A stretch of DNA of 64,000 nt from Tetmemena sp. SeJ-2015 (lineage: Eukaryota > Ciliophora > Spirotrichea > Sporadotrichida > Oxytrichidae), in contig JAJKFJ010020912.1 in NCBI GenBank assembly GCA_027382625.1, positions 43,889-107,888 on the forward strand, read 5' to 3'. The notes beneath the pieces were generated by a model. It saw nothing but the letters and a program-made list of their open reading frames with translations. It was not told the origin of the DNA and searched no databases. Below, in pieces: positions 39,827-59,077 of this stretch. Each line of letters starts with the position of its first letter. The stretch's first letter is position 1. Both the position numbers and the translations under genes were made by a program.

Positions 39827-42455
39827 TCAAAACTTGACACGGTAAAGATCATAAAGTCTGAAGAGGACTGGTGCGTCAATGATCTTGACATTCTACAGAT
39901 TCTCGAGCATACCTTTGACTTGATCAATTCTTTCTTTGTCAGCAGGATTGAGAGAGGCCTCGGGGATTTATTTCACCTCATTCATATAGTAGTCAAGTAC
40001 TATGGATGCGCGTAGCCTCGACTGGTCTTCATATTTCAAGTGAGCATCGAAAACCTTGGCATCAGGGTCGTAAGGCTATAAGTTGTAATTGAAAACGAGG
40101 GGAAGTGTCAAAGCTTACGTTAAAAGAGAAGAAGTTCTTGCGAATAGAGAAGTCTTAGATTACTCCATCCTCATCCATGTTATCAACGATATCTAAAAGC
40201 TCCTGCACAAACTGCTTTTGCTAGCTTCTCATCTTTATGACCTCATCTGCTTCCTCACCCTCGTCAATCGATGCGCCGAACAAGTTCAGATGCTCGATAT
40301 CCAAACTCTTGAAGTCTTGACTGTTGTAATCAGTTTCTATATAAGCAGTTACAATAGAATGGTTAAAGCTTACAAGCTACAAAGTTTTGGTCCTCATCAA
40401 TTTGTTAAGGAGACTTATCGAAGTCTATTATTGCCTTATTCTCGATCTTAGCATTGAATTTTTAGAGCTCTATTTCATTGAAATTGTACTCGAACTCCAT
40501 CCTTTCCATCCTCTTGTCGTCTTCAAATAAACTTCTTGACACATATGATGAAGACAAGATACTATTAAAGTCAGTAAAAGTTTACTTGCTGAGTATCAGG
40601 TGAGGCAAAAGTGTTGATGTCCTACTTATTGAAAGCACTGTCAAGTTAATGGAAAGTGTTGCTAGAAGTCTGGTAATGCTTCATATTGAAAGCAGCCTTG
40701 CTCTCCTTCTTGCTCTTGTCTTCTCCTGCCTTTATCATCATCTGAGGACAGAATTCCCTCTTCCACTTCGTTTTAACCTTGAGTAGCTGTCTTATTTGCT
40801 GCTTCATCTTCAACTGCTTCCTTGCCATCAAATATCGACTGTCTCTTTGCATCTTGAGGTGCCTCAGTTGTGTCAGAGGTGTTACCCTCTTTCACTTATT
40901 CATAAGCCTCATCGTCTTCGTCTCTTCTTGCAACACTCTTAAACCTTGAAACTTCAGAATATGGGTTTCAAAAATTTAAGATAGCTGCTGTAATCTATTT
41001 AGCTGGCTTGTCTGGATCTTCCTCCTCCTTTCCGAAGAGAACCTTCATCTTGTAGTTTAGCTCTCTCTGCTCATTTTGGCTGGCAAACGATAGTTCATCG
41101 GGGCGAGCTCCAGTCTTATAGACTGCATCTATCACACTGATATCAGCCTTCTGGCATGTAGATTAATTTCATAGCTTTCCTTCTTAACTATAAACGAAAG
41201 ATGATGTCAACATAGGCAGACCACAAACTCACGAGCTAGAAAAGATCTTCCAGTCTTGCCTGAAGTGTCTTGAGCTTTTTGGATGGGTCCTTTAGAGAAA
41301 CTCTGTAGTTTCTTAGAAGCTTAGCATACTCCAACTCTAGCTTTTCAATCCCCTCCTTACCTATTCTATTTAACTCATTTAGACTTGAATTTCGATACTA
41401 CCCTTTACGCTATCTTCGCCAAGTTAAGTGGCTATAAGTCTGCGGTTTTCAATGTACTCTTTGAAAATTCTATGCTCTTCAGTGAGGGACATATGGCGGA
41501 TGAGAGACTTGAGATCGCGAAAAATTGGCTGCAGCTGTAAATTCTTCTTCTCCATGATCTCTTCGTTATTGAGCAACTTCTACATGGACTTCTTGATCGC
41601 CTTGCTCTGCATAGAAAGCCAAGTGCTAAATTTTCTGTTGGTACTCTTCGTAGTTCAACACAGTCTGTGGCAATATGACATTCACAAATATCTTCTTTTC
41701 AAAGGCATGGGGAAATATTAGTCTTATTATTCTTATGAATTGGTGTTGATCTTCTCATTAAGATCGATGAGAGTAGGCCAGCGGCGAGAGTCAATTTACA
41801 TGACATCAAGCATGATCTTATTCTGCATGTTGCGCTTCATGTTCATCAAATCCTGTTAACGCATCCTATCCAGTAAGTAGTCCTCTCTCTGCTTCAAGTC
41901 TTTCTACATAAATCAGTTCAAAAACTTGTGAGGTAGGCTAATAACTCCTACTTACCAAGATTTTAGAGGTAGCGCCTGAGATGGTGCAGATCCTGCTTCT
42001 CCACTTGTCTAGCTTGTTTCGCTGCTATCTCTTTCTAGTTTCAATAGATTGACTGATGAATTAGTTCTCAACTTGAGTTTGATGTTCCCAATATTCCTTT
42101 CTGTGAATTACATAGGATAATAGTACGGTTTCTTATCTAGTACTGAATAAGTGCTGAGATTTGAAATTGATTATTAATTCCATTCCTAAAATTTTACTTT
42201 ACTTTACTTTACCTTTCTGTGAATTCTACGTGCCTCAGACATCTTCTGCTTGAACTCGGCTTAGTCCTGTAAGTAGTCTACATCCTTCTGCCACACTTAG
42301 TGTCTCTTGTAGCCTCTGACATTCAAGGAGTACATCATGCTGGTGAAAGAAGCCAGTTATTGATTTTAAGGAGTAAGCAGAACTCTAGTTAGAGGGGCTT
42401 GCTAGGAAGTTTTCTTGACAGTAAGCAGCTGCTTGAAGGCAGAGAATTACTTCAT
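39827..42455 (-). CDS. Coiled-coil protein of unknown function
   Basis: The ATG at 42455 opens MKQFSAFKQLLTVKKTSQQ, then SLNVRGYKRHQVWQKDVDYL and KEYWEHQTQVENQFIS. The protein is largely charged coiled coil (EDYLLDRMRQQDLMNMKRN, LSLTEEHRIFKEYIENRRL) and ends APVLFRLYDLYRVKF before TGA. Several GT-AG introns are evident. An IES with a 6-bp pointer at 41147-41184 must be removed to join KK with ADISVIDAVYKTGARPDE. The single-letter pattern does not let me assign a family. A ciliary or mitochondrial structural role would be a guess. Confidence 0.6.
41147..41184 (-). other. IES in the coiled-coil gene, pointer AGAAGG
   Basis: CCTTCT (AGAAGG in sense) lies at 41147-41152 and 41179-41184. Removing 32 bp fuses the exon start AAG AAG directly to GCT GAT ATC AGT GTG ATA. 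The unexcised reading meets TGA. Confidence 0.8.
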
Positions 42456-42903
42456 TTTATGGTTTATCTATTATTATAATGCCATTTTAATTGCCCTCAA
42501 ACTATATACATGGAGAATGAGTGAGAAGAACTGTAGGAAAAATCGAGAACAACTATAAGTGAATGCGAGATGGTGAATGAATCAGAGATTACTTAAGCAG
42601 AGTGAGTTGATGATGATGTGTAGAGCGGTATCTGCTTAAGTGAATAGCCCCTCCCAGAAAAATGACAATTATAATCTTGAAATACAAGAATCACCAAAGA
42701 TATGCGATTAGCTATTGCCTAATAGATTGCTTGACTATAAGATATCGATTAAATGGCATTGAGACTCAGGAAGTGTGACAGAGAGAGATATGAAGAGTGA
42801 ATTAGTTTATGAAACTTTAGTTTGAACATAAATAGTATTTATGGAATGCTTGTTTGCTTGCATGCTCTGCTTAATTCTTGCCTTGAAGCGGCTGCTTTCT
42901 TGC
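42456..42903. other. Intergenic DNA
   Basis: This is the spacer between two minus-strand genes. There is no supported open frame or repeat. Confidence 0.35.
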
Positions 42904-43807
42904 TCAGATCTTGCTGAAGACGGCGATATCGACGGACTGGACCTCATCTTCGAACTCCATGATCTTGTCGGAGAGATCATCAGCGGAGACCTTGGCATCC
43001 TCAATGACGCAACCAACGACGAGCTTGTGGACTCCGTAGGCGATGGGTTCCTTCTTGTTGTCGAGTTTCCAGACGAGTCCGTCCATCTCGATGGTCAAGA
43101 TTTTTGGAAGAGAGCGTCGAGGTCGGTCTCGGCTTCGTAGGGCTTCACGTCGAAGAGGATGAGGGATTTGGCGATGAGTGCGGGCTTTGCCTTGGCCTTC
43201 TTGTCAGCCTCCATCTGCTTCTTCTTGTCCTCAAGTGCCTTGAGCTCCTCCTATCATTAATAATTTAATACCTCAAATTAACTCCTACTAAACCCCAAAG
43301 TGCATCATTATAATCTGCATATATCAGTCCATATCTAAGCTAGTTTGTAGACAAGGGGTTTATTAAATATACTCTAAATTGATTGGGAACAAAGACAGGC
43401 GTCCAAGTAACAACTCTTTTTGCGAAAACTTACTTCTGAGGGTCCGTCTCCGAAAAGATCGAGCTCATCTTCGTCAGCAGCGGCGGTGGTGGCGGCAGCA
43501 ACTGGCTTCTCTTCCTTGGGTGCTTCCTTCTTGGCAGGGGCGGGCTTTCCTCCCTTGGCAGCGGGTGCGGCCCAGGTGGCTCTCACGGCATCGGTGAATC
43601 TAGAGGTGAGAGAGAACCAGGCGAAGGTGTGGGGGTGGGTGTCCACGGAGGGGACGTTGTTCTTCAGCAATTCGTAAGCGTCCTTATCGGCGGCAGTGGG
43701 GAGCTGTCTATTGGAGAGGATTAAGAAACTTAAAGTGGTGCTTACCCTCCAAGGAACTGGTTGTCAGTAAGGGTCTTCTCGAATTGATCAAGGTTTGCGG
43801 CTTCCAT
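42904..43807 (-). CDS. Elongation factor 1-beta (eEF1B alpha/beta-type GEF subunit)
   Basis: This guanine-nucleotide exchange subunit reloads eEF1A with GTP. The first exon (MEAANLDQFEKTLTDNQFL) and second exon hold the N-terminal GST-like part and a Pro/Ala/Lys linker. An acidic DEDELDLFGDG motif follows. After a long (about 0.18 kb) intron the catalytic domain reads KPALIAKSLILFDVKPYEAETDL, MDGLVWKLD and CVIEDAKVSADDL, ending EFEDEVQSVDIAVFSKI before TGA. That is the conserved GEF ending. One base is missing in a T run at 43101-43105, which breaks the frame between LDALFQK and ILTIEMDG. The gene is notably GC-rich with strong codon bias, as expected for a highly expressed gene. Confidence 0.9.
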
Positions 43808-44032
43808 TTAACTCTTTTATTGAAAATCTTTTCAGATATAAACTAGGAACAATCATTCATTAAATATTTACTCCAACCTACCCTCTTCTTTCTCAAACCA
43901 TTTCGCTATTTTGTGTCAGTTGAAGAGAAAATTCAAAGTTGAAATGCAAAGAGAGAGAGAGAATATGAAAGTGGTACAAGTTTTTAATTCTAAAGTGTGA
44001 GTGAGAATTCTTAAATTAAAATAGGAAATAAA

Positions 44033-45521
44033 ATGTCGCAGCAGTAACGTGCCAAGCTCGTCCTCAATAATTCCACAATAAATGGTGCAAGTGGCTCTGC
44101 TCACCAGACCAAAAGATCATCTGAGCTAACTCAAACTCATAAGAGTAAGTCCAGTTAAGCCAGTATTCATTCGTATGTATGATGCTTATTTAAAATAGGA
44201 GGAGAATCAAGCAAGACGAGAATCTCAAGTCAATTGAGTCCTCTGGGCAATAATGAAAAGCAGAAAAAACTCTTTCCAGTAAGAAGAGTTTAAGGTGCAA
44301 ACTATTTTTATAGCAACGACTGCATCAAATGATTGAGGAGAATATTAAGCTCAAGCTTAAAAATCAAGAGCTCAAGGTTGTGAATCAAAAATACCTAGAT
44401 GTGCTTGGAGTAAGTAAAAATTGTAATCCTGCTATTTGTAACTTAGCCCTTTCATTTTAGGAAGCTGAGAGAGAAAATAAGTAGAAGGGTCATCTCGCAG
44501 TTAATGCAACCTCAGAGCTGGGCTTCCATCACTCCAAATTCGAGCTAATGAGGAGAGACTTGCTCAACCTGAATAGCAGAGAACGCTTTCAGACTAAGAA
44601 CCTGAGAGGGTTGATCAACTATGCAAAGCAACTCACTCAAGAGCTGGAGGACTATAAAATTAAGGTGAAGATGGCAGAGAAGATTATCCAAGACTTGAGA
44701 AACACAGGAAATGAAAGTCTAGACTCTCTTATAAACATGCTCTCAGGCTACCAATAGAAGTAAGCAAAATTAGTAGATGATGAAAACTTTAACATAGACA
44801 AGAGCAAGCCAGATCAGAGATCGAGAAGCTTAAGCAACTTGTGTTGTTAAAGGATGATGAAATTACTCAACTAGATGAGGACATCTCAGACTTAAGTGTA
44901 ACCATTATAATCGACTCTTAAAAGTTAATTAGGGGTTTGTATCAACTGCCAAAGGAAAACTTGAAGATAAGGTTGATGACTTGCTTGCAACATTTGAGCA
45001 AAACAAGAGACAGATTAGAAGACAGGATAAACTCATTGTTGATTTGCAGTAGAAAAATGAAGTATCGTAGATCAACATAGTCCAAACTGCAGAAGAGGTA
45101 TAACGATAGGCTTATGAGAAGAACAAGATTCAACTCAAGCTGAAGGAGCTGGAGGATTAGAAATCAGGATTGCAAGAATCAATTCACAACATAGAGTCTA
45201 AGCTAGTCACTTATCGTACTGTGCAAGCTTAGAGTTAGGGAAGCTATGGCTAAGGCAGTAATAACTATCCATACAATGAGTACCAAGTTCAATAAAGCCA
45301 TTAAGTACTTATTATATTGCCATGGAATCCAATGGAAAGACGCACCTCAAGTCGCCAACACCATTCAAGGAGGAGTGGTCAACAATTTTAACCAAATCGG
45401 CAAGCATCAAGTAACCATCAATGAGAAAGTGCAGACAAGTGGATCAGCTCCCCTCAAGTCCGCTCTTTCTTCAAAGCCTACCAAGCACTCAAAGGCCTAG
45501 TCCATCTAAATCTAATCATGA
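44033..45521 (+). CDS. Coiled-coil protein with IES near its C-terminus
   Basis: The ATG at 44033 (MSQQQRAKLVLNNSTINGAS) is followed by exons joined by short GT-AG introns at about 44185-44209, 44279-44313, 44411-44460 and 44761-44798. The body is continuous coiled coil (RLHQMIEENIKLKLKNQELK, KQLTQELEDYKIKVKMAEKI, DLLATFEQNKRQIRRQDKL). The tail is Gly/Asn/Gln-rich (GSYGQGSNNYPYNEYQVQQ), then GIQWKDAPQVANTIQGG to TGA. A 22-bp IES at 45297-45323 separates those two tail parts. No enzymatic domain is seen; structural, possibly ciliary or centrosomal. Confidence 0.7.
45297..45323 (+). other. IES, pointer GCCAT
   Basis: GCCAT lies at 45297-45301 and 45319-45323. Removing 22 bp joins CAA TAA AGC CAT GGA ATC CAA TGG, keeping one frame through to the TGA. 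If retained, the frame shifts and stops early. Confidence 0.83.
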
Positions 45522-45699
45522 CCTCCTTTATACTTTTAACCCAAACTTAACTTAATTTATGAATCCTTTAAGTGTAATATTTGAAGTTATGATTTAATGC
45601 TTAATGATAATGACTTGATTTAATTGAGTGTGATTTAAAGTGGCGGGGGCCCTTGATAAATATTTGAGAAAATTAAATCACTATTATTATATAGTTTAA

Positions 45700-46659
45700 A
45701 TGGACACAGATAAGTCAACTGTTCAAAGTGCCTAAGAAGGTAAGTCATTCCCTGACTTTCATTTTGCCTGCTTGCGCCATCATTCTTCCTCCTTCTTTGA
45801 GGAATTTGCGAAAGTTGGAATCTAACCTAATGTGTAGGGGTTATCCTGACTTAGGGACAGCAGCCAGAGGAGAAATTCGATGAGGTCTTGGCTGCTGAGC
45901 TGAGACTGGACGAATGGACCTTCTGGGAGCATTACGAGAGCATGGCGCCGTCCAAGGATAAGGACAAGTAGTACCTAGAGAGTTTCAAAAAGATCGCCTG
46001 GTTCAATGATGTAATCTCCTATATATAAACCACTGCATTTGTGCACGCTTTTGATTTTCCTACTGGCAAGTTTGGAACAACCTCCCAGTCTCAGATTTGA
46101 AGAACTTCTTCTACAGCATCCACACTGGCAAGATTCCTACGTAAGTAGTAGTACAGCAAATGAATATATATGCAATTCTGAGCAAGATATATTGACCAGG
46201 TTGATCACCAAAGTAATAGTGCAACGAAAATTTTGAAGCTCGATCTCTTTATACCACGCATCTAATGCAAATGCAAATATCCTAAACTGTGAATATAGAT
46301 ATGATGTGAGAGAGGATAGCAAGAGAATCAGTACTCTTAGTCTCTTCAGAAAAGGTATTCAACCAAAGTTTGAGGACCCTCAACTCAAACACTCGAAAAA
46401 CTCTATGTTTCCTTTCATGCTTTAAACTCTTGAATTTTTGAATCGCATTTGGGATCAATTAGTCCAAGACCTCATCACTTGAAGAATTAAATTGTTTTGA
46501 AATGAGCAGATTGCAGGAATCCGTATCGTGGACAAGAGTTTTTCAGGAAAGGAGATGTTCAGATTCGAGGTGTGGGTGAAATTCTCTGAAGACCAAGGTG
46601 AGGCTGCATCTGCCATCAAGGCTTTCATCGACGCTGAATAATTTAATACTCTTGCATGA
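45700..46659 (+). CDS. Scrambled eIF4E-family cap-binding protein gene, segments 1, 3 and 5
   Basis: eIF4E binds the mRNA 5' cap. The start is MDTDKSTVQSAQEG, then LDEWTFWEHYESM, SFKKIAWFNDVISYWQVWNN (after removal of the IES at 46017-46062), LKNFFYSIHTGKIPT, a roughly 0.2-kb intron, and LFRKGIQPKFEDP ending in the 13-bp pointer at 46368-46380. Segment 3 is only 37 bp (46426-46462, LEFLNRIWDQL). Segment 5 starts at 46499 and runs NEQIAGIRIVDKSFSGKEMF to TGA. The sequence between these pieces is germline-only. Segments 2 and 4 lie downstream. In the assembled protein the cap-stacking Trp of the PMWED motif appears as Phe and the GGxW Trp as Tyr, so cap affinity may differ. Confidence 0.85.
46017..46062 (+). 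other. IES in eIF4E, pointer TCCTA
   Basis: TCCTA lies at 46017-46021 and 46058-46062. Removing 41 bp gives GTA ATC TCC TAC TGG CAA GTT TGG AAC AAC, restoring the conserved FW-x-x-YN-like stretch of eIF4E. A GT-AG reading of the same stretch gives the wrong phase. Confidence 0.82.
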
Positions 46660-47114
46660 TAGACTTGAATTTCTTAGTTTGGAAATCACAAGGTCTGAGA
46701 GTGAGGCAGGTCAGAGCGAAGAGTATGAAAACTTGAGCAGAGATTAAGGAGCGCGCATTGATGGATCGAGCGAGAGGGGGTTTGAGGCTCTGAAGAGAGG
46801 TGATGACGGTGTCATGCCTGCAGATGTAGAGTTGATTATCTTCGTTGTTCGTTCATTCATTCATCATTATTATTAGCATAATATACTTATCGCATATATA
46901 TACACACACTCTAAGGTTATAAGCATGAGCTGATGAGGCAGCCATGACATATGAGACTGCAAATGATCATTATACTATCCTTACTTCATAATTAAAAGCA
47001 CTTCTTATTCCCTCCCCACCAACTATTAATTTACGATTATGTGATGTCATTATATTTCTCAGTCTCCTATCATACATAGTATATATCTTGAATGACAAAA
47101 ACCTTGTTGCTAAT

Positions 47115-47210
47115 GTTTGAGGACCCTGAGAATGCAACAGGTGGTGATTACAAACTTCGCCTCATCGGAAACCATGGTTTCCAAAGTACCTCGGGTGAGA
47201 CCACTCTTGA
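47115..47210 (+). CDS. eIF4E scrambled segment 2
   Basis: This 96-bp segment lies 455 bp beyond the eIF4E stop. It begins with GTTTGAGGACCCT (47115-47127), identical to 46368-46380, and ends with ACTCTTGA (47203-47210), identical to 46426-46433. It encodes FEDPENATGGDYKLRL, the conserved eIF4E region missing from the main block. Inserted between segments 1 and 3 it keeps the frame exactly. Confidence 0.92.
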
Positions 47211-47287
47211 TTTTTCACTTTATTAATCAGGACTCATCACCCATCGCATCCCTCATCATGAGCAGTCGATGTATATCTGCTCTCTCT

Positions 47288-47345
47288 ATTAGAAGCTGAA
47301 TACAATCAGAAGCACGCTCTTGGGCAATCAGTTCAGTTTGGAAAT
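47288..47345 (+). CDS. eIF4E scrambled segment 4
   Basis: This 58-bp segment begins with ATTAG (47288-47292, matching 46458-46462) and ends with GAAAT (47341-47345, matching 46499-46503). Placed between segments 3 and 5 it reads IWDQLEAEYNQKHALGQ and then SVQFGNEQIAGIRIV, with one frame throughout. The pointers are short, so support is weaker than for segment 2. The order 1-3-5 / 2-4 and the restored frame argue for it. Confidence 0.75.
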
Positions 47346-47442
47346 CAACATATGCATCATATTTATTAACTACTTTAGAAAAATAAGTTGCATTAGGTTA
47401 GTGAGTATTGATAAATTTTAATACAAAAAGGGAATAACTAAA

Positions 47443-48303
47443 ATGGGAAACACTTTGTGCAATCAGGCACCTTCAGATGAGTTTTTCCTTACTACGACTC
47501 AGGGAGAACCAGCTCCTAGAGTCAAGAGACCCATTGTCAAAGGATACGACAATGACACTGACTTTGACGCTGAGGTAAGCCATATTCAAAGTTGGACTTA
47601 GGTCATCTTCTATTAAAAACAGTTCTTTGGAGAAGATAAGATCAATATCATGATATCTTTGAGAGGAGAGATGGATCTTCTTTCGTCATCATCATAAACT
47701 TCTAATTTTGATCTTCAACACTTTTATAGAGTGCTGAAGTAGTGGAGCACGTGACTACTACTTTCAAGTCACCTCTAGACCTAGCCCTAGAGAAGAATGC
47801 CAATGCAGTACCAGCAGAGGAGCAGCGCAAGAGAACTATAGTCAAGAAATTGCATGAAGAGAGAGACCAGGAAGCGGAGCTGAGGAGACAACAATAAGCG
47901 GAGATCGATAGACAACACCAAGATAAAAATGGCCATTGATGGTCTTAGCTTAAGTTGTTAATTAATTTAAGAGGAGGAAGATAGGAAGAGACAGGAGCAT
48001 CTGAGGGAGGAAAAGGAAAGACTGGAGACTCTTAAGCAGCAGGAGAAGGAAGCCAAGAGATAGAGGAAGTTAGAGGAGCAGAAGAGATAAGCCGAGGAGG
48101 AAGCTAGGGCCAGGGCTCAAGAGGAAGAAGCTGAGAGAATCAGACTTGAGGCACTCGCTGAAGAAGAGGAGGCCGAGAGACTTAGACAAGAGTAAGAAGA
48201 GGCTGATAGATAAAGACAAGAACAAGAGCTAGCTGAAGCCGAGGAAGGCTAAGAACCCGCCGAGGGTGAGGAGCAAACTGAAGACCCTTACAATTAAAAT
48301 TGA
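47443..48303 (+). CDS. Acidic Glu/Arg/Gln-rich coiled-coil protein with possible N-myristoyl start
   Basis: The ATG at 47443 reads MGNTLCNQAPSDEFF, a Gly-2/Cys-6 start that could be lipid-modified. A first exon ends at DTDFDAE with a gtaag donor. The second exon (AEVVEHVTTTFKSPLDLALE) runs into a long charged helix (RQEHLREEKERLETLKQQEK, AEEEARARAQEEEAERIRL). The Glu-rich end is EGEEQTEDPYNQN before TGA. An IES at 47920-47983 interrupts the helix. Membrane-anchored rod proteins of this kind are often cortical or cytoskeletal, but no family is assigned. Confidence 0.7.
47920..47983 (+). other. IES, pointer AAGATA
   Basis: AAGATA lies at 47920-47925 and 47978-47983. Removing 58 bp joins CAA CAC CAA GAT AGG AAG AGA CAG and continues the charged helix. 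The insert carries an in-frame TGA. Confidence 0.83.
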
Positions 48304-48606
48304 GTTGGTTGCTTTGTTCCGGTAAGCTGATGACGGTAAGAGGTATCATCATCATCATTAACTGCAAAAGATATTTAAGGTATAAATTTAACTCATTTCT
48401 TCTCAAATAGACACTCAAAAGGAGAAGGATTTTATGAGAGTTAAAGCAATGAGAAATAAATAGTCAGCCTTCTAAGAATTATAAAGCATATTATCATTTA
48501 AATTAATTGAGACACTCAAATTGCTACCTAGCTCAAGTAAAACCATATCCAAATTATTAATAAAGCAAGCATACTAATAATACTTTCATTGCCACACCGA
48601 ATTTCA

Positions 48607-50460
48607 ATGGGTAGTTGCCAGAACAAGGTCCTTGTCTCAAATAAAAGAGCCAGAGCTTATATGATGAAGCCCAAATATATGAGTGATGTGAAATATAGGG
48701 TATGCCTATCATAGACTTTTCTCAATACCTTGTCGAGTTCATTAAAAATTAATTTCCCAAGCTTTTGTAACTAGTTCTTAGACGAGAGAAACTTCATTGA
48801 AGTGTCAAAGTAACTCTATTTCTAACTAAGCTTACTCGAATTCAAGAAGCTCTCCCTCTGCAGCCGGTAAGTAAGTACTTCCACTATAAATTTTGCCCCT
48901 CTTTTTCTCCAGCGTCAATTTGAATCACTACTCAATTATTCCAGTGGAGTAATCATTGTTGAAAATGTGAGATATTTAAATTGGCCCTGTTTCAAAGGAG
49001 ATCAGTCTTCTTCGTTTTCCTTGCTTGATTTTGAAAGTCTCGAATATATATTCGAAAAATACTTTTTTACTTATTAAATTCTATTTATTTAGAAAACTTA
49101 GAGCTTTGATATCGTCGCCACACGTGCAAGCTAACATACTCTACTTCCAACGGTCTCTTACAGTAAAGAAAAGAAAACACCAGAGCCAAATTCCCTCTAA
49201 CTTCCTGATGAGGATGTAGGGTCAAATCTTTTAGGACTCTATGCTCCAGTGGCAAGATGACGCATCCAAAGCATCGAAGAAAGAGCCAAGCTTAAACTTT
49301 TCGCAAATGAGGGAGTCTAAATAAATGTCTGATAAAAGTTCCTGGAGGAACGTAAATGAAAGACTCCAAATCCGACCCAAATCAAGCGAGAAATCAGAAC
49401 TAGTGAATCTAAAAAAGGAAATTGAATAACTTCTTTAATTCTTTTTGAATCGCACTCTGATTCATTAGAGAAAGATACAGTTTAGGGAGAAGAAAAGAAA
49501 TGGAGTAGGTCAGAAACATCTTGACTCCTCTTCTGCTAGTCTCTCTTAAAATGAAGAGGAGGCATAAATACACTACAAGCTTGAAACTACATGCCCTTTT
49601 TTATTGATTAGTGTTATATTTGGCTTAAAATCAGTAGTGGGATTGGTGAAATAGGCAAAAATCATTATAAAATCAGATCAGAGTGGACCTCTCCGCTCAA
49701 GCTTAAAAGAATGACTCAAAATCCCTCTGCCCACTTCCTAGATTCTGAAGATATCCCTCTTTCATATTTAAATCGTTTTAAGTTAAGTGTTATAGTGATT
49801 CCTCTCATCAGCGCATAGATATCAGTTCCAAAAGCGCTTAAAAATTAGGGTTCTGAATTTAATTTCTAGAAGGATATAATAAGTAAGGGAGGTAAGGCGG
49901 CCTTGGGAAAGAGAAGTTCTAATCTCCAAAAAATGACAAATAAAACAAAGGGAAATAATTAATAAAGAGTGCCTCCTGATATAACGTGCTTCGCTATCGA
50001 TTAATCTAAAGAGGTTAATGAATTCGATGCCACTAAAATAATCAGCAAGACTCAGCTTTTGCTGGATCACTTTGATCCCTAAAGCGAGAGACTCGACAGC
50101 GTGAAGGATAGCAGATATGAAACGGAGAGCCATCTAAATATAGAGGGACTTCAAACGACATAGCGCTATCAACTTATTGAGTAGCAGTACTTTCAAATGC
50201 TTGACACAAAGGAAAAGTCGGTTTTTGACAAGGCAAGTAGCTTCAGACAGACGCTCCAAAATAACAATGGCATACGCTCTAAAAGTAATTTACTCTAAAC
50301 TTAGAGACATCATGCCACTCTCAGATAGGAGCACCTTCAATAAAAATGTGTTTCCTCCTAATTTTAAAAGAAGCACTCTATTCTGAATAGCACTAACTCA
50401 ATGGTGCAAGAGATTCTAGCGTTCGAGCACTTTGGGAGCTCTAGACTGTTAGAAAAATGA
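48607..50460 (+). CDS. Hypothetical protein with MGSC start
   Basis: The ATG at 48607 reads MGSCQNKVLVSNKRARAYMM, again a Gly-2/Cys-4 start suggesting possible acylation. It is followed by FLDERNFIEVSKQLYFQL and GVIIVENV, with gtaag donors between. From about 49160 a long Ser/Lys/Gln-rich frame runs (MSDKSSWRNVNERLQIRPKS, HLDSSSASLSQNEEEA). It ends HFGSSRLLEK before TGA. Most Gln are TAA/TAG. It has no recognised domain. Intron and possible IES positions between 48700 and 49160 are only partly resolved. Confidence 0.5.
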
Positions 50461-50749
50461 TTCTTCAATATAATCTAGAATAAAACATAGAAATGTTTAA
50501 GGACAAGAAAGCTAACTATATATGACTTAAAAGAATGATAAGTTATCCCACCAAGAGGCAAGCTAATTAAGTAACTATACTAATTAATAAGGAGGGGCTC
50601 AAATGGGTACGGTTGCAAGCTTCCCGATATTTAGGATATGAGAGGGAGACTAATTGTCATTTGAATAAATTAGACTGATAGGATTGATTATGTAAAGTAA
50701 ATTAGAAATTAAGTTTCATTTCTTAAGAAATAATATATTAATTTCATTA
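50461..50749. other. AT-rich tail-to-tail spacer
   Basis: This is the spacer between two convergent genes. There is no open frame or repeat of note. Confidence 0.4.
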
Positions 50750-51602
50750 TCATTAAACACACAGACAACTAATCTTCTCCAATATATTATTTTGGAGCAT
50801 ATTAAAAGCCTACTTTCTGTCAAATTTGTTCCCACCTCTATCTATAAATTAAGGTTATGTATGTGAGCTGAGGCCTTCAGAATTTTCTAAATTGCTGTCA
50901 GTGTGCGGATCATTATAAGGTATTCCGATTATGAGCAGTTCAATCTTCTCTTTTGCACAAAGCTCTTTTATCTATTCAATTTGTGCTCTTGACGTCAAGT
51001 ATCCTAAATCAATTTTCGTCAAGAGTAGTAGTTCCTTTGCTCGGATCAAATTATAAGCACAAACAAACAAGTAATAGATATGCAATTTTTAAATTAGGCT
51101 TAGACTTCTCTTTGTTCCAGACTTCTCTAGTTTGTTGAATTAATTACTGCGTCCTCTCTTTGAGATTATCCTCTTGCTAAAGTGAAATCAGGTAGACTAT
51201 GACATCTGCATCTTTTAGTAAGTACTAGTTATAGAATGGAAACTTCTTGAGAAAAGAGCCTCCACTTTCCCAAAAGCTGAAGCGCATAGTCGTTTTTCCG
51301 GGCTAGAGAGCAGCAGCAGCACTTTCTGAATTTTGAAGTTTGCTTAAATCTGCTTAGTCTTCAGATTGTTCATGTAACCATTCTACAACACTCACAGATA
51401 TCCCCCATGTCTCAGTGTAAGAGGGCAGTGAAGGTAACTTGGACTCAATAGTTGTATCTTGAAAATTCTACTCCTTAAGGAATTTAATGAGCGCAGATTT
51501 GCCAGAATCTGAGGCACCAACTAATCAATTAAAACACTTATTGCATTAGAATCAAAGTTGATTATTTATGAATGACACTTTGCTTTCAATAGTAGAGTTC
51601 AT
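50750..51602 (-). CDS. Small GTPase-like P-loop protein
   Basis: After a short N-terminal piece (MNSTIESK) the protein shows a P-loop VGASDSGKSALIKFL. A region near switch II reads FSFWESGGSFLKKFPFY, then YLLKDADVIVYLISLQQ, and LLLLTKIDL matches the (N/T)KxD base-recognition motif. The Cys-containing tail is NNILEKISCLCVQ before TGA. Order and spacing fit an atypical Ras-like GTPase, with a longer loop between P-loop and switch II (about 70 residues). Whether it hydrolyses GTP is uncertain. A 6-bp repeat (ACACTT at 51534-51539 and 51575-51580) suggests an IES just before the P-loop, but one base is then left over. Confidence 0.6.
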
Positions 51603-51653
51603 TAATTTCTTAAATCCTTAATTCGCTAAATTATAATAGCGATAATTTATATA

Positions 51654-53051
51654 ATGAGCGAAAATATCACAGCTTTTATCTCAAGTATATTCATTTTCAT
51701 AGAGCCTAAATCTTTCAGATAACTAGACTGAGACCATCCTTTAGAATGCAACCTCTACTGATACTCAAGACATCCATTCACACACTTCTTTCGAAGACTA
51801 ATTTGACATCGATATTAATAAACTGCAAGATCAACTTGTGAATGCTACTCTAACTCCCATCAACTATGTGCTGGAGGTAGATCTCACCTACAAAATCCAA
51901 TTCACACTAGCAATGATCATAATATGTGGCATCTTCTATCCTCTCTTTAATAAGTGCTTTTAAATTGTTGAGAGTATTTCTCTCTTCACTTACATATTCA
52001 AATACTGTCGAGCCATTTCCAATCCAGTGACATTTCCTTATAAGCACGTAGTAATTACTGGCTGTGGAACAGGGCTTGGTAAGTCTCTTGTCCAGGAAGT
52101 TTACATGAAGGGTGCTTATATCACAATGATCGGTAGAGACAAAGAAAAGTTGCTCAAGGTGGCTTAATCTGTCGACGTAAGATCCAAGACAATTACATAC
52201 CTCATTCTAAGCAAACTGAATTAAGTCAATGATGATTTATCCTGCTCTTATAGGTAAACTTCAAAGTTCAACCCTTGATTAATGTTGTCGTGAGTGATAT
52301 TACAGAGTTAAAGGAAAGAGATGTTGAGATGCTGCTAAAGCAGTCAGAGTTAATGTATGGGCCGATTGAAATGCTGATATGCTGCGCAGCAATAAGCAAG
52401 CCTACCATGATTCTACAAAGCAGCATAGATTAATATGCCCATCACATGAACCTAAACTACTTGGGAGTGCTCAAGTTTGTTCTTCCTGTTGCAAAGCGCA
52501 TGCAAAGTAGGAAAACTCAAGGCAGGATAGTATTAGTTGGAGACACTCTTCAGTCGAATTTTGTTGTACCAGGTATGGCTCCTTACACCTGCAGCAAGGC
52601 AGCAGTTGAGCACTTAGCCTTCCAATTGAAAGCAGAGCTTGAGCCTCACGAAATTAAAGTGCACTACTTCGTCGCTCCACCTATGGATTTAAGTTTGCGA
52701 TATTAATTATAAAGGGATAGTTAATTGTTATCAGAGTAAAAGAAAATGTATCACCTAGTGACTAGATGCCTGATGAAAGATTAAAGAAGTGTGAGCACAG
52801 ATTATGCAGCGCAACTTCTCATGAGAGGAATATCAATGAAGTAAGTCTTGACGTGTTTTAATACTGCTTTTAGTCATTTCATGATCAATGGAACTTGGAC
52901 ATAAGAGATAATGGGTACTCTCAAAGGCACTTCAAAATACTTTTACACTTTACTCATGACTCCAATCGCTATAGCAATAAGATAATACAGTGATCAACAT
53001 GTCAGGACAATCATCTCTTAGCAGAAACCATTAAAGTCAAACTCAAACTGA
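51654..53051 (+). CDS. Short-chain dehydrogenase, 3-ketodihydrosphingosine reductase-like
   Basis: This family reduces 3-ketosphinganine with NADPH in the ER as an early step of sphingolipid synthesis. The N-terminal part has a membrane helix (FTLAMIIICGIFYPLF). The cofactor motif is VVITGCGTGLGKSL (T-G-x-x-x-G-x-G). LICCAAISKPT resembles the NNAG position, and the catalytic YTCSK (Y-x-x-x-K) is preceded by IVLVGDTLQSNF. A C-terminal membrane segment (YFYTLLMTPIAIAI) and a basic/Asn tail precede TGA. Introns are at about 52179-52258 and 52842-52873. The first 60 bp contain a TGA that needs an intron or IES not fully resolved. An SDR call is firm; KDSR rests on the membrane helices and context. 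Confidence 0.7.
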
Positions 53052-53099
53052 AGTACTAAACTTTTAAGTATATTAGCAAAAAACTACTACTTCTTCTGC

Positions 53100-55176
53100 G
53101 ACTGTAATTTTCTTTTGACAAAACTTCAACAATACGCTTTTAAGAATCTTAAATTGGCTTATATTACTTTAAATTGTTGATATTTCGTACCACTTCTCAA
53201 AACTCCTCTGTATTTAGTACACTTACAATAACGTTTTTATCATCAATATCTTGTGCCATATTTTGAGAATTACTACTGGCCTATTTATTGACTTATTTAC
53301 CATTTCCTTGGTTCTTATTGCTAGATGCTTGCTAGTTTTTATGAGAGCTAAGTAGCTAGTTATGGTTAGATTTCTAGTTAGAGAGATGATTTTAGAGCGT
53401 CTTGATTGCGACTTCTCGCTTTCTCTCTGTATTTTAGCCAGTACCCTCCGAGTCTTAAAACTCATCTTCGTCATACTAACCTCCAGTGCCATTTTCATCA
53501 TACTCCTCATCGTAATCAGACTGATGAGAAATCATCACCTGCTTTCCTTCATCTCCCGAGCCTTCAGCTTCCATTCCATTCGCATCCACTCTCTCACTTA
53601 TTGGCTCTTCTTCATGATTATCAGAATCCATGTCTTAGTTTTGCTGCTACAGCAATTGGCTTGACTGGACGAGTCTCTCTTAAATATCAGTGCTCATCAA
53701 ATCGTCCCTCTAGATAATTTACCAAATGCATCCACGAGAATCTGTGAACAGAACCAGCTCGTTGTTTTATTGAGAAAAATCTAGCATTTCCTGAATCTTA
53801 CTAAGATCTCCGTAATTCTTATCTACGAATAATTGACTGAGTGTGTGCAACCTTCGATTCCGTTATTCGTTCAAGCTTAAAGTTGAGGCTCTCCCGAATG
53901 CATTAGCGTTTGGATTAGACTATGCAGGATTTTGGAGAAAGTTTAATTGAGAGCTTGAGTAGTTATTCATTGCACTGCTTGCTCTGTTGCTTTCTTAGTT
54001 AGAATAAAAAATATGAATGCAATTAGTTTCGGTAGCTGCGAGAACTGTAAACTCCACCATCATGATATTCTGAAAAAATAATTAAGCATTTAAAGTGTTA
54101 TCATGTTCACTTTGATTTTCGAACTGAAGTGATGCCAGTTTTTCCTTCATAAGATTCGACAGTTCTCCCTTCAGCCATTCGATTTCAGTTTGTAGCTCCT
54201 TTTGCTAAACCAGAAGTTTCTCTTGTGCCTGCTAATTCATTTTACTATGTGCTTACTGATAGTGGACTAGTTATGAATGAGGAATTTAATGTCTGAAAGA
54301 TATTTAGCACTTTGGACAGGAAATTTACACCACTTGAGCTCCATCAGAGTTATTGGTTTATTATCCATTTTAGTTTTGATTTAATTTCTAACTGCTTTTT
54401 TAGGGTAATTAGGCCTGAGAACTGGGATTCTAATTTGCTCCTCCGTCCATCATAAGGAAAATTATCATAAACCATAATAAAACTACACTTATCATCGTTG
54501 TAAGGTTGTATTGTGTGTTAAATCCATTCTTAGGAGAAGTCTAATAGAAAACTGTAGTATTAGCCTTAGTGCTTGCATATCCAAGGGTCTGCTAGTGATT
54601 GTTATTGTTGGTGTGTTAACTTGTAATTTGCTACTATTGCTGTCCACCTTTCTTATCTACATTAATTGAGTGATAATTATCTTGGTGAGGCGGTGAATGA
54701 GCGTGCTACTGCGCTTGATTTAGCTATAGGCGAAGCGAGTCGATTTCTTTTTTAAGTTTCTGTACCAGATTATCGCTCTAACCACATGTATTTATATAGT
54801 CATCTATACATAGTCATTACAATAAGCTCTTGAAAATGAAAATTAAAAGCACCTTAACGTAAAATAGGTTTGAAATCCTTTAAAAGATTGAATTTGAAGT
54901 GTGAATTCCACGTGCATTTATGGATTTGGTTAGATGGATTTAAGACTTACCCAATAATTGCTTGTTTTGTTTTAGGGTGGTTCTCATGTCGGCATTCCTA
55001 TCTTAGAGCACCTCGTTCTCCTTAGCAAGTTCCTATATGTACTGGTTCAAGTACTTTATTTGATCCTCAAGTTTTGCATTCTTGCTCCTCTCCTCATTCG
55101 TGTGGACACTGTTATTCGACTGTGATGAGGATGCGTGGCTATCCTTGCCTTTGACAAACTTTTTAAAAAGACTCAT
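53100..55176 (-). CDS. Coiled-coil protein with a Cys/His zinc-finger-like motif
   Basis: The ATG at 55176 reads MSLFKKFVKGKDSHASSSQ, then a coiled coil (KLEDQIKYLNQYIQELAKEN). Near 54290-54340 a C-x-x-C...H pattern occurs (ISCPKCQISFRHQIPHSQL). Another coiled coil follows (LQTEIEWLKGELSNLMKEKL). The 3' part is Asn/Ser/Gln-rich, with an acidic SDYDEEYDENGTGG stretch near 53530. The 3' end and some exon joins are not resolved. The possible zinc site is an inference from spacing only. Confidence 0.5.
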
Positions 55177-55336
55177 TTTATTAGAGACCTCTTTCCAAAA
55201 TATAATTATATTTCAAAATATTCTATTTCCATCCCTACCAACAATACTTTCTTACTAGAGAAAGCAATTAACGAATTTAACATAATTATAGTAGTAATAA
55301 TCATTATAATATTTGGACAAAGAGCAATAATCGATT

Positions 55337-57483
55337 ATGGCGCAACCATCATTATTCGGCGGAGGAGCCACAGTAAGTTTAAAAAGCAAACTCACTAGCA
55401 ATCTTAATATAATTCTTTAGTAAACTGCGAGCACTTCTTTGTTTGGAGCATCAACTGCAGCCACAGGAAGTTAATTTGGAGCACTTGCTGCTTAGCCTAC
55501 TTAAAACTCAGGCACTACATCAAGCTAGCCCTTTGGAGGAGGAGCTCTGAGAATAATTGTTAATATTGTTTATGATTGATGAGTGGAGGTGGTCTATTTG
55601 GATAAAAGCCATCTGGCACCACTGGAGCCTCAGCCACAGGAGGTGCAGGTCTCTTTGGAGGTTAATCAGCTACACTTGCTGATGGGAATAAGGGTTTATT
55701 TGGAAATCAAGCACCCTCCTCAGGAGGACTATTCGGAAACGTAGCAGCCACAGGCGGTAGTGCACCAACTGGCTTAACCTCATCTTTTGGCCAGCAAGCA
55801 AATCCAGCTAGCACATCAGCTTAATAACCCGCTTCTGCATCATCTGGGCCAGGATTGTTTGGTCAGCCAGCAGGTTCAAGCGCTCCTTCAACTGGAATAT
55901 TCGGAGGATTTGGATAAAAACCTGCTCAATAACCTGCAAACGCCGAATAAAAACCACTAGCAGCTGCTCCTACTAATTTGTTTGGAGGAGGCTCAGGAGG
56001 ATCAGCTTCGGGATTCGGCGGATTTGGACAAGCTGCCTCTAATCCATAGACTGCAACTTTCAACAGTCAAGCATCTTCTTCTTAACCACCCTCAAGTTTA
56101 GGATCAGGCGCTGCTGGAGGCGGCCTCTTTGGTCAAAGTACCGGGGGCACTACTCATTTTAAAAAAAAAATTAATATATTTGCGATCTAGATATATTCCT
56201 CCTAAATTCCTAAGGTTCAAATAAGGAAGATTTTTCACCTTATTGTAGGAATATATCTATTCTTAAACCGAAATTTTATCTTATTCATAAATTAAGTTCT
56301 CACTACTCTCTTTGGAAAGCCAGCTGAGAGTTCAACTGCATCTAACTAGCCTCAGATGCAGGAGACTAAATCCTAAGCACCTGCAACTTCATTAGGCCCA
56401 GGTGCTGCAAGCACTTCACCCCTTTTTGGAGCTTTTGGAGCTTCCACTAACTCTACTTCAAGCACTTAGATGCCAGCAGGAGGACTTAATCTATCAGGAT
56501 TTGGTACTGCAAATAAACCTTCAGGACTCGGATTTGGAAGCAGCACAACAGCAACTACTAATCTCGCTGCTCCTAAAGAATAATCAGCACCTGCATCCAC
56601 TTCTTCGTTCGCACCCTTTGGAGCGCCTGCCAATAAAAATGAGAACAATCAACCCAGCCAGCAAGAGTAAAAGCAACCAGATACCAAACCAATCTCATCG
56701 TTCGGAGGCTTTGGTGGCTAATCCAATACTTCAACTATTTCAGGATAAGCACCAGCATCTTCATCTTTACAGACACCTTCTTTATTCGGTGGAGCAAAGA
56801 CAGAGGAGAAAAAGCAAGAAACCACTTAGGCAACTCCATCTTTTGTCACAAAACCTAAGGATGATGCTGGTCCTAGTTTATTTGGAGGTGCTAGCTCCAC
56901 CTCTGCATTTGGACAGCCATCTTAATCTTTGCTAGGAAAGACAACACTAGCATAGCCCACCCAGAACTAGGCAGATAATTTAAGTAAGCCAACTTCAAAT
57001 CTCTTCGGAGGTTCAGGAGCACTAGGTGGACTTGGAGCTTCTTCTAATCTATCTGCAAGTTCTTTCGCAAAGCCAGCCACTTCTACTGAACCTAAAGAAG
57101 CTGCAACTAAGCCTGATTCCTCAGCTTCAAATCCTTCTGCAAGCTTATTTGGAGGTGGAGCTAATAAACCAGGTGGGCTCTTTGGAAATGTAGCAGGAGA
57201 TGCTCCCAAAGATAAAAAGTAAGAAGAAGAGAAGAAGGCTAATGGAATTAGTGCAAGCGGCACCTAGTCTGCATCTTTTGGAGGGTTTGGAAGTAATAAA
57301 CCAGCAGATATAACTGTACCCTCTAAGCAACCTACTTTAGGAGGCGCACCATCAACAAATTTAATCAATTTATTCGGAGGTGGCTAAGACTCAAAGAAAG
57401 AAGAGTCTTCTAAACCTGCTGGAGCAGGACTTTTCGGCCAAACTGCTACAAATCTCACTTAGCCAACAAGCCAAGATAAATCA
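55337..57483 (+). CDS. FG-repeat half of a scrambled Nup62/Nsp1-type nucleoporin
   Basis: The ATG at 55337 (MAQPSLFGGGAT) opens a domain of many FG, LFG and GLFG-like repeats in Ser/Thr/Gly/Ala-rich spacers, the disordered permeability barrier of nuclear pores. A 48-bp intron follows the first exon. Two IESs (55534-55589 and 56148-56308) must be removed to keep the repeats in frame. The reading runs to LFGQTATNLTQPTSQDKS, where the 11-bp sequence AAGATAAATCA (57473-57483) ends the segment. The same 11 bp start the inverted coiled-coil segment on the other strand. Continuing on the plus strand instead gives non-FG sequence of random type. Confidence 0.85.
55534..55589 (+). other. IES in the nucleoporin FG region, pointer TGGAGG
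   Basis: TGGAGG lies at 55534-55539 and 55584-55589. Removing 50 bp gives CCC TTT GGA GGT GGT CTA TTT GGA, two FG units in frame. Because the repeat itself encodes part of the FG motif, some of the match could be coincidental, but the frame demands a removal here. Confidence 0.78.
56148..56308 (+). other. IES in the nucleoporin FG region, pointer CACTACTC
   Basis: The 8-bp pointer lies at 56148-56155 and 56301-56308. Removing 153 bp of very AT-rich DNA (including a 10-A run) joins GGG GGC ACT ACT CTC TTT GGA AAG. The insert length is 3n but it contains TGA codons in frame. Confidence 0.85.
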
Positions 57484-57592
57484 AAATGCAGAGATCAGAG
57501 AGGAAAGTCTTCTATCATTGAGATTTTAACATCAAAATTAATTATTAGTCTAACTTTCTAAATGCAAAAACCGTTTTCATTCTCATAGGGAG

Positions 57593-58526
57593 TTAGCTTG
57601 TAGACCTAGTCTCTCTCCAATATCTTCTACTTGATAGTTAAGTTCTATGGCGGCGTTTTCAAGCCATAGCAAAGTCTCATAGTAAGAACTCACTATTTGA
57701 TCCATGTTAAGTACTTAGCCATCCATTACGATGTTGAGCTTCTCCTTGCCTTGACGCTCTCTCACATCTATCAAAGATTAAGCTTCAGCTATTAAGAAAT
57801 TGAAAGATGATTTAGTTAAATTGAACATGAGATTTATATGAATAGCTCCTTGGACATATCATCAATTTGCTGCTCAATGCTGAGTGCCTTTCTGTAAACG
57901 CTATCCTTGGAAGACTAAGTGTTAATAGCTCTAAAGTACTGCTCATCTGCTGTCTATCCCTTGAAGTAATCCACAATTAGCAACAACTTACACATATGCA
58001 AACTTTACAAGTTTAATCTAGGAACTGCTTATTTCCACCTGCACTAATTATTCTATCAAGTTCTCTGTCGATCTAGTCCAGCTCTTAGATGATTTGAGTC
58101 TGATCTTGGGCCACTCCAGCCAAGGCAGAGGCGTTAGACTTATAGGTATCTATCACTTCTTTCGAGGAGGCTTCTACTCTCTTGATCTGACCCAGTGCTT
58201 CATAGATAGTGCGTTCATAGTTGAGCAGTTGATCGCAGGTGTCCTTGAATGACTACTCATTCTGAGTCACTTGATGCCTCCACTTGTTAAATAATTCTAG
58301 AGTTTAGATATCTGAAAGTTATATTTGATAGGTTTAATAAGAGCACCCACTTGCTGATCATCAGGGATGATTACTTGTGCTTGCTAAGCAGTCTAGGTAA
58401 GTGTGGTGGCTGGTTGAACACCTGATGCAGCCACTTATTATTGCTGTTGAGGTTATTGCTACTAATCTTGACTGGCTTATGGTTACTGAGAAGTGTTGAT
58501 TTGAGTGGGTGCTGCTGATTTATCTT
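57593..58526 (-). CDS. Inverted coiled-coil half of the Nup62/Nsp1-type nucleoporin
   Basis: Reading from 58526 on the minus strand, the pointer AAGATAAATCA (rc 58516-58526) leads to AAPTQINTSQQPQ and a poly-Gln stretch. A GT-AG intron and an Nsp1_C-type coiled coil follow (ELFNKWRHQVTQNEQSFKDT, AGVAQDQTQIIQELDQIDRE, LSIEQQIDDMSKELF), then VSSYYETLLWLENAAIELNY, ending at TGA 57593-57595. The segment has no start codon of its own. FG repeats followed by this coiled coil are the defining architecture of Nup62/Nsp1 in the central channel, so the two halves complement each other exactly. Confidence 0.85.
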
Positions 58527-59077
58527 TTAAAATATTAAATTAGAAAGTTAAAATTCAGGACGCACACGACCGGCACTAGGCACCGGTCGCCCTTTCCCTG
58601 AAGGCTTTCTGGTTTGGTAATCCGTTGGCTGGTGGGTGAGTGCTTAAAAGAGGCAAGGGATAATGGCAGCCGAAGCCCTGGGGAAGGTGGTGAGCTGCTC
58701 ACTGGAGAGATAATCAAAGGTGAGTGGTTCCCACTCACCCTCCTAATCCTTGTAGGCGTGGAGGGACGAGATCTATGGGCAAACACTCAGTCATGCAGCT
58801 GGACAGCGAAGCCAGACGCTACGGAGCAGCGACTTGCTCTCGGTCCGAAGCTACCGGATTTTTTTTCTCCTTTTAGGTTTTTTTGGATGGTCTGCAGAAG
58901 CCGGGGGCTTCTGCTCAGAGTGTGAGGTGGCGGGGGTGCCACGTGTTTAATATCCCTATTCGGCTGGTAGGTTTGTGTGCGTCAGATAAGTGCGTCACAG
59001 CAATATCATTGACGTCACTGCCTATCTTATTTAAGCCGGGGGCCCTTTAATTCCCTTAATTATTATCTTTTAAAATA
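58520..59077 (+). mobile_element. SINE-like retroposon copy 4 with 15-bp target-site duplication
   Basis: The element is 58535-59062 (528 bp), flanked by the perfect repeat ttatcttttaaaata at 58520-58534 and 59063-59077. It has the same start (AAATTAGAAAGTT) and tail (CCCTTTAATTCCCTTAATT plus ATTA) as copies 1 and 3. The left duplication overlaps seven bases of the nucleoporin pointer (58516-58526), so the insertion point was within a few bases of a coding-segment edge without destroying the pointer. Confidence 0.9.

Follow-up and report, generated by a model that had tools for sequence, protein, structure and literature searches.

The window analysed here, a stretch of 64,000 nucleotides corresponding to positions 43889-107888 of contig C1991 in an assembly of 146 Mb and 5,213 contigs, very probably carries the germline form of an eIF4E-family gene from a stichotrich-like ciliate, odd-even scrambled as MDS1-MDS3-MDS5-MDS2-MDS4. 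As read from the sequence, its coding segments lie out of order in two separate clusters, an odd one at 45700-46659 and an even one at 47115-47265, with all five segments on one strand and inside 1.6 kb. Each junction carries a direct repeat (pointer) with two germline copies, the pointer lengths being 13, 8, 8 and 8 bp. We infer, short of proof, that the five segments are joined at these pointers. The features are as follows, in window coordinates.

45700..46380, + strand: segment 1 (odd cluster), from the start codon to the end of pointer 1; open frame with codon table 6; contains two probable introns and one simple IES-like stretch
45740..45837, + strand: probable intron 1 (GTAAGT...TAG), required for the frame
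46027..46067, + strand: probable simple IES of 41 bp, with a 2-bp AA pointer (46027-46028 / 46068-46069)
46141..46298, + strand: probable intron 2 (GTAAGT...TAG), required for the frame
46368..46380, + strand: pointer 1, first copy, GTTTGAGGACCCT, 13 bp, an exact repeat (46368/47115)
46381..46425, + strand: IES between segments 1 and 3, 45 bp, GC 0.333
46426..46478, + strand: segment 3, 53 bp, from pointer 2 (ACTCTTGA) to pointer 3 (CTCATCAC)
46479..46501, + strand: IES between segments 3 and 5, GC 0.174
46502..46659, + strand: segment 5, opening with pointer 4 (ATGAGCAG) and read here as far as the stop codon TGA at 46657-46659
47115..47210, + strand: segment 2, 96 bp, with the second copies of pointers 1 and 2; encodes ENATGGDYKLRL...
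47211..47232, + strand: IES between segments 2 and 4, GC 0.227
47233..47265, + strand: segment 4, 33 bp, GC 0.545, with the second copies of pointer 3 (CTCATCAC) and pointer 4 (ATGAGCAG)
47372, + strand: apparent site of telomere addition and of the first base of the next gene's chromosome, where the telomere of contig C770 (L033) is fused

Pointer 2, like pointer 1, is an exact repeat, with its 8 bp found at 46426 and 47203, and the 8-bp pointers 3 and 4 lie at 46471/47233 and 46502/47258, respectively. Joined as 1-2-3-4-5, the segments in this corrected form give one open frame of 687 nt including the stop codon, or 228 residues, under a code in which TAA and TAG specify Gln. The initial annotation had already stated that this order produces a single frame, and with that code the frame is indeed open, provided that removals it did not list are made, namely those of two GT-AG introns and of the 41-bp IES-like stretch. 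The introns and the AA pointer were placed by frame and family fit only. Removal of the simple IES leaves FNDVISYIQVWNNL, which is gap-free at that place in a weak match (5.5 bits) to the eIF4E-like chain 6fbz; if this IES is counted, the coding part would consist of six MDSs.

Pointer chains were then evaluated among direct repeats of at least 5 bp between 46340-46530 and 47050-47371, with the frame kept open. Sixty-two such repeats connect the two stretches, and they allow 282 open chains with two or four junctions; CTCATCAC and ATGAGCAG are used together in 8 of the best 12 of these. With repeats of at least 8 bp, of which six are common to the real stretches, exactly one open in-frame four-pointer chain is obtained, and it is the corrected map, with a pointer sum of 37 bp. 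When the even cluster was shuffled 20,000 times with dinucleotides preserved, any such chain appeared in four shuffles and a sum of 37 in none, the bounds of this search having been chosen after the repeats had been seen, and a repeat of 13 bp or more occurred in 36/20,000. Moreover, no such chain was detected when 322-bp stretches from the rest of the window were scanned in 50-bp steps on both strands (2,460 overlapping stretches). When 5-bp pointers were admitted, the 31-bp sum of the map as initially drawn was reached by 4 of 300 shuffles, and 37 by none of them (maximum 35).

The family match of the putative joined frame points in the same direction. The corrected join scored 70.9 bits against Pfam IF4E (PF01652), over residues 39-217 and profile positions 5-142 of 158, above the curated cut-off of 28.7 bits. 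Segment 1 alone, with introns and IES removed, obtained 32.8 bits; leaving out segment 2, with the IES read through, gave 61.8 bits, so that segment 2 adds 9.1, and a hand-made join without segment 4 gave 56.4 bits. Since every tested join exceeds the cut-off, it is the differences in score that decide, not the bare match. Among solved structures no match was obtained at E 0.001 with either the corrected or the initial join, the best value for the corrected join being 0.0063; on chain 4ue8, the alignment of the corrected join spans the repaired region (residues 79-202, E 0.0066), whereas that of the initial join is confined to residues 79-140 (E 0.54). Alignment of the corrected join with three further eIF4E genes from this genome also continues well across the joins. 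A profile built from these three paralogs, which is small and includes paralogs partly joined by eye, placed a chain without segment 2 on top (18.9 bits) and the corrected map second (18.3 bits), the best chain per shuffle having a median of 16.3 and a maximum of 30.6 bits. As this profile is weak and ranks a chain lacking segment 2 first, it lends no support by itself.

A second haplotype of the locus is available in contig C4230 (17.5 kb), which is colinear with window positions 41257-58657 at 97.4% identity. It shows the same scrambled layout, with pointers of 16, 8, 7 and 8 bp; the differences at 47114 and 47233 fall on pointer edges and change the pointer lengths. Over the joined 687 nt, the two haplotypes differ at two positions and the protein is identical. 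In the coding segments, with two pointers counted in both copies, substitutions affect 2/703 positions; the figures are 8/455 for the spacer (insertions apart), 3/297 for the introns and simple IES, and 0/90 for the three scrambled IESs. As there is no haplotype difference in 45778-46649, this comparison tells little about constraint. Those 872 bp over the main gene block, introns included, are identical, with 30 substitutions in the upstream flank (45064-45607), and eight plus two insertions in the downstream one (46660-47114); recent conversion or assembly switching is our suggested reading. C4230 also has a 55-bp insertion at 46870, in the spacer that separates segment 5 from segment 2.

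These results allow the map as initially drawn to be revised. The odd-even order 1-3-5 / 2-4 proposed in the initial annotation is supported by the pointer statistics, the Pfam gain and the second haplotig, and the main block 45700-46659 is, as had been noted, missing the part that links FEDP to the RIW helix. Two downstream segments had been called to fill this gap: 47115-47210 stands, through the 13-bp and 8-bp repeats, and 47288-47345 falls. Similarly, the first two of the pointers originally given (13, 8, 5 and 5 bp) are retained, and ATTAG and GAAAT are replaced by the 8-bp CTCATCAC and ATGAGCAG. That the gene should follow the initial map exactly, with segment 3 at 46426-46462 (37 bp), segment 4 at 47288-47345 and both 5-bp pointers, is very unlikely. 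Its join is open, in frame and worth 58.4 bits on Pfam IF4E, but this is 12.5 bits below the map with 8-bp pointers; its pointers are short and common, with four copies of ATTAG and five of GAAAT within 45690-47400, and on the weak paralog profile it takes rank 30 of 282 with 12.7 bits, a score matched by 263 of 300 shuffles. A segment 3 of 53 bp, through the 8-bp pointers, fits better than one of 37 bp. The stretch 47288-47345 (+ strand), which lies between the redrawn segment 4 and the telomere site, was rejected as segment 4 on its lower-scoring join, and is predicted to be absent from the somatic gene. With segment 4 redrawn, the test proposed earlier needs to be reversed: the somatic molecule should be without 47288-47345, instead of including it.

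We also considered a colinear gene, in which segment 1, the adjacent IES and segment 3 form one exon, 46462-46509 is a GT-AG intron and the downstream pieces are duplicate relics. Reading straight through the 45 bp of the 1-3 IES meets no stop and preserves the frame, splicing at the GT...AG of 46462-46509 also preserves it, and the resulting 44.2 bits on Pfam IF4E are above the cut-off. Even so, the score is 26.7 bits lower than that of the corrected join, the strand containing GG and the last part of helix 2 are lost, four ordered frame-keeping repeats are left unexplained, and the IESs show no similarity to the segments (1-3 IES versus segment 2, p 0.53; 3-5 IES versus segment 4, p 0.996). 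The colinear intron model was rejected on Pfam score and repeats, and we regard such a gene as highly improbable. Finally, pieces of another locus could have been placed downstream by the assembly, which is fragmented into its 5,213 contigs. Such an artefact is extremely improbable, as C4230 shares the layout while carrying its own differences, and the pieces were found on no other contig, in a search that omits very short overlaps (e.g., the 29 bp of C770). The scrambled gene with four pointers of 13, 8, 8 and 8 bp is the reading that we adopt in what follows.

The germline nature of the window, already claimed in the initial annotation, receives independent evidence from the telomere-capped contig C770. 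This contig starts with C4A4C4A4C4 (20 bases) joined to position 47372, and then tracks the window, with 98.1% identity, as far as 55300; this fusion makes 47372 an apparent site of telomere addition. The position lies 107 bp past segment 4 and 71 bp ahead of the likely ATG of the next gene (47443). A C4A4 telomere at a site internal to the germline contig, a mark of germline DNA in ciliates whose somatic chromosomes are gene-sized, was found at this single site, and on a contig that itself retains germline-like sequence. Eleven contigs have a telomere repeat at, or at most 8 bases from, their start; when the first 8 kb of each of ten telomere-starting contigs (L029-L038, 10.8-21.2 kb) were compared with the window, only C770 matched. 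Germline-like sequence runs throughout the first 8 kb of C770, with 60 gap positions in 7,984, and this contig may represent an unprocessed intermediate that carries a cap, or else somatic and germline reads joined by the assembly. A search of the assembly with the initial join as query turned up no contiguous copy of the gene, and a telomere-capped copy of the gene itself was likewise not found.

Based on its sequence, the encoded protein is a divergent member of the eIF4E family. From the alignments, residues read by eye are Tyr at W56, Phe at W102, Ile at W73, Trp at W166 and Glu at E103. The W73 position is the usual binding place of eIF4E partners. A canonical cap-binding eIF4E has Trp at W56 and W102, where the present protein has Tyr and Phe in the alignment. 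No confirmed relative was obtained from bacterial and archaeal (GTDB) genomes and viral contigs with the initial join as query. Residue numbers and, for the most part, roles follow the available part of PMC4330643, and the family described therein for alveolates likewise has Glu at E103 and Trp at the W166 position; the present protein departs from it at W102 (Phe) and W73 (Ile). Dinoflagellate clades 1 and 2 share Tyr at the W56 position, and dinoflagellate eIF4E-1 has, as here, additional residues in the interval from W73 to W102 (PMC4330643, in part).

The three other eIF4E genes in the assembly, on C3036, C2962 and C3115, have the conserved PMWE motif. The two introns in the core of the C2962 paralog, at columns 142 and 187, fall at the codons of pointers 1 (140-144) and 3 (185-187). 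The chance of both introns lying at pointers by random placing is 0.012 (19/170 columns being at most one codon from a pointer), a value calculated post hoc and for one paralog. In addition, C3036 (L026) has a 31-bp IES-like gap with an ATGA repeat (44459/44490) two columns from pointer 3, and C3115 has a frame break four alignment columns from it; by eye, none of the remaining apparent introns of C3036 and C3115 lies at a pointer. It is conceivable, though rather unlikely, that the scrambled junctions arose at ancestral intron sites, so that RNA removal in one copy would correspond to DNA rearrangement in another. Intron-IES conversion has already been proposed (PMC9797194; PMC1805493), and the available part of the former reports 174 potential cases; if the coincidence holds at more loci, it would be an addition to these.

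Taken as the micronuclear copy of an eIF4E-family gene in a ciliate reading TAA/TAG as Gln, the locus would be processed during macronuclear development by bringing together the two copies of each pointer, one of which would be retained. The three short IESs, together with the spacer past the gene's own 3' end, would be thrown out; the simple IES in segment 1 would also be removed as DNA, and the two introns spliced from RNA. The chain 1-2-3-4-5 would require just same-strand joins at four pointers, and the joined product would be expected to read ...GTTTGAGGACCCTGAG..., ...ACTCTTGAATTT..., ...CTCATCACCCATCG... and ...ATCATGAGCAGATTG..., with a single pointer copy in each. Oxytricha has its joins marked by pointers and retains one copy of each, the order being guided by long and small RNAs (PMC5940158, in part); by extension from Oxytricha and its relatives, joining at the present locus might be RNA-guided as well.

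In Oxytricha trifallax, scrambling affects 5,285 of 18,111 chromosomes (29.2%), according to the accessible part of PMC10901763, and the sections available of PMC5940158 cite M1M3M5M2M4 to illustrate the usual pattern; they also describe odd-even genes (repeat word 1234 1234 = M1M3M5 M2M4) with the same order on one strand, and a pointer range of 2-20 bp within which the present pointers fall. Compared with those odd-even genes, the present locus is very compact, at 1.6 kb, and is known here from germline sequence alone. As far as the portions available show, none of the literature matches listed deals with scrambling of a ciliate gene for eIF4E or another initiation factor. For Tetmemena sp., the part of PMC9797194 at hand describes scrambled loci with codon table 6 (TAA/TAG = Gln), as here, in an assembly of 237 Mb, compared with 146 Mb here, and scrambled pointers longer than simple ones, a relation matched by the 8-13 bp versus 2 bp of the present gene. 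Under the local-duplication model, an IES should resemble the segment whose place it takes, unless the likeness has decayed; at the present locus no clear resemblance was seen for any of the three pairs (p 0.056 for the third, besides the 0.53 and 0.996 above). Odd-even scrambling and its pattern are thus already known from Oxytricha, and the present gene is a further instance, a clean and compact case in which a map drawn by eye was correctable from pointer length and family score alone.
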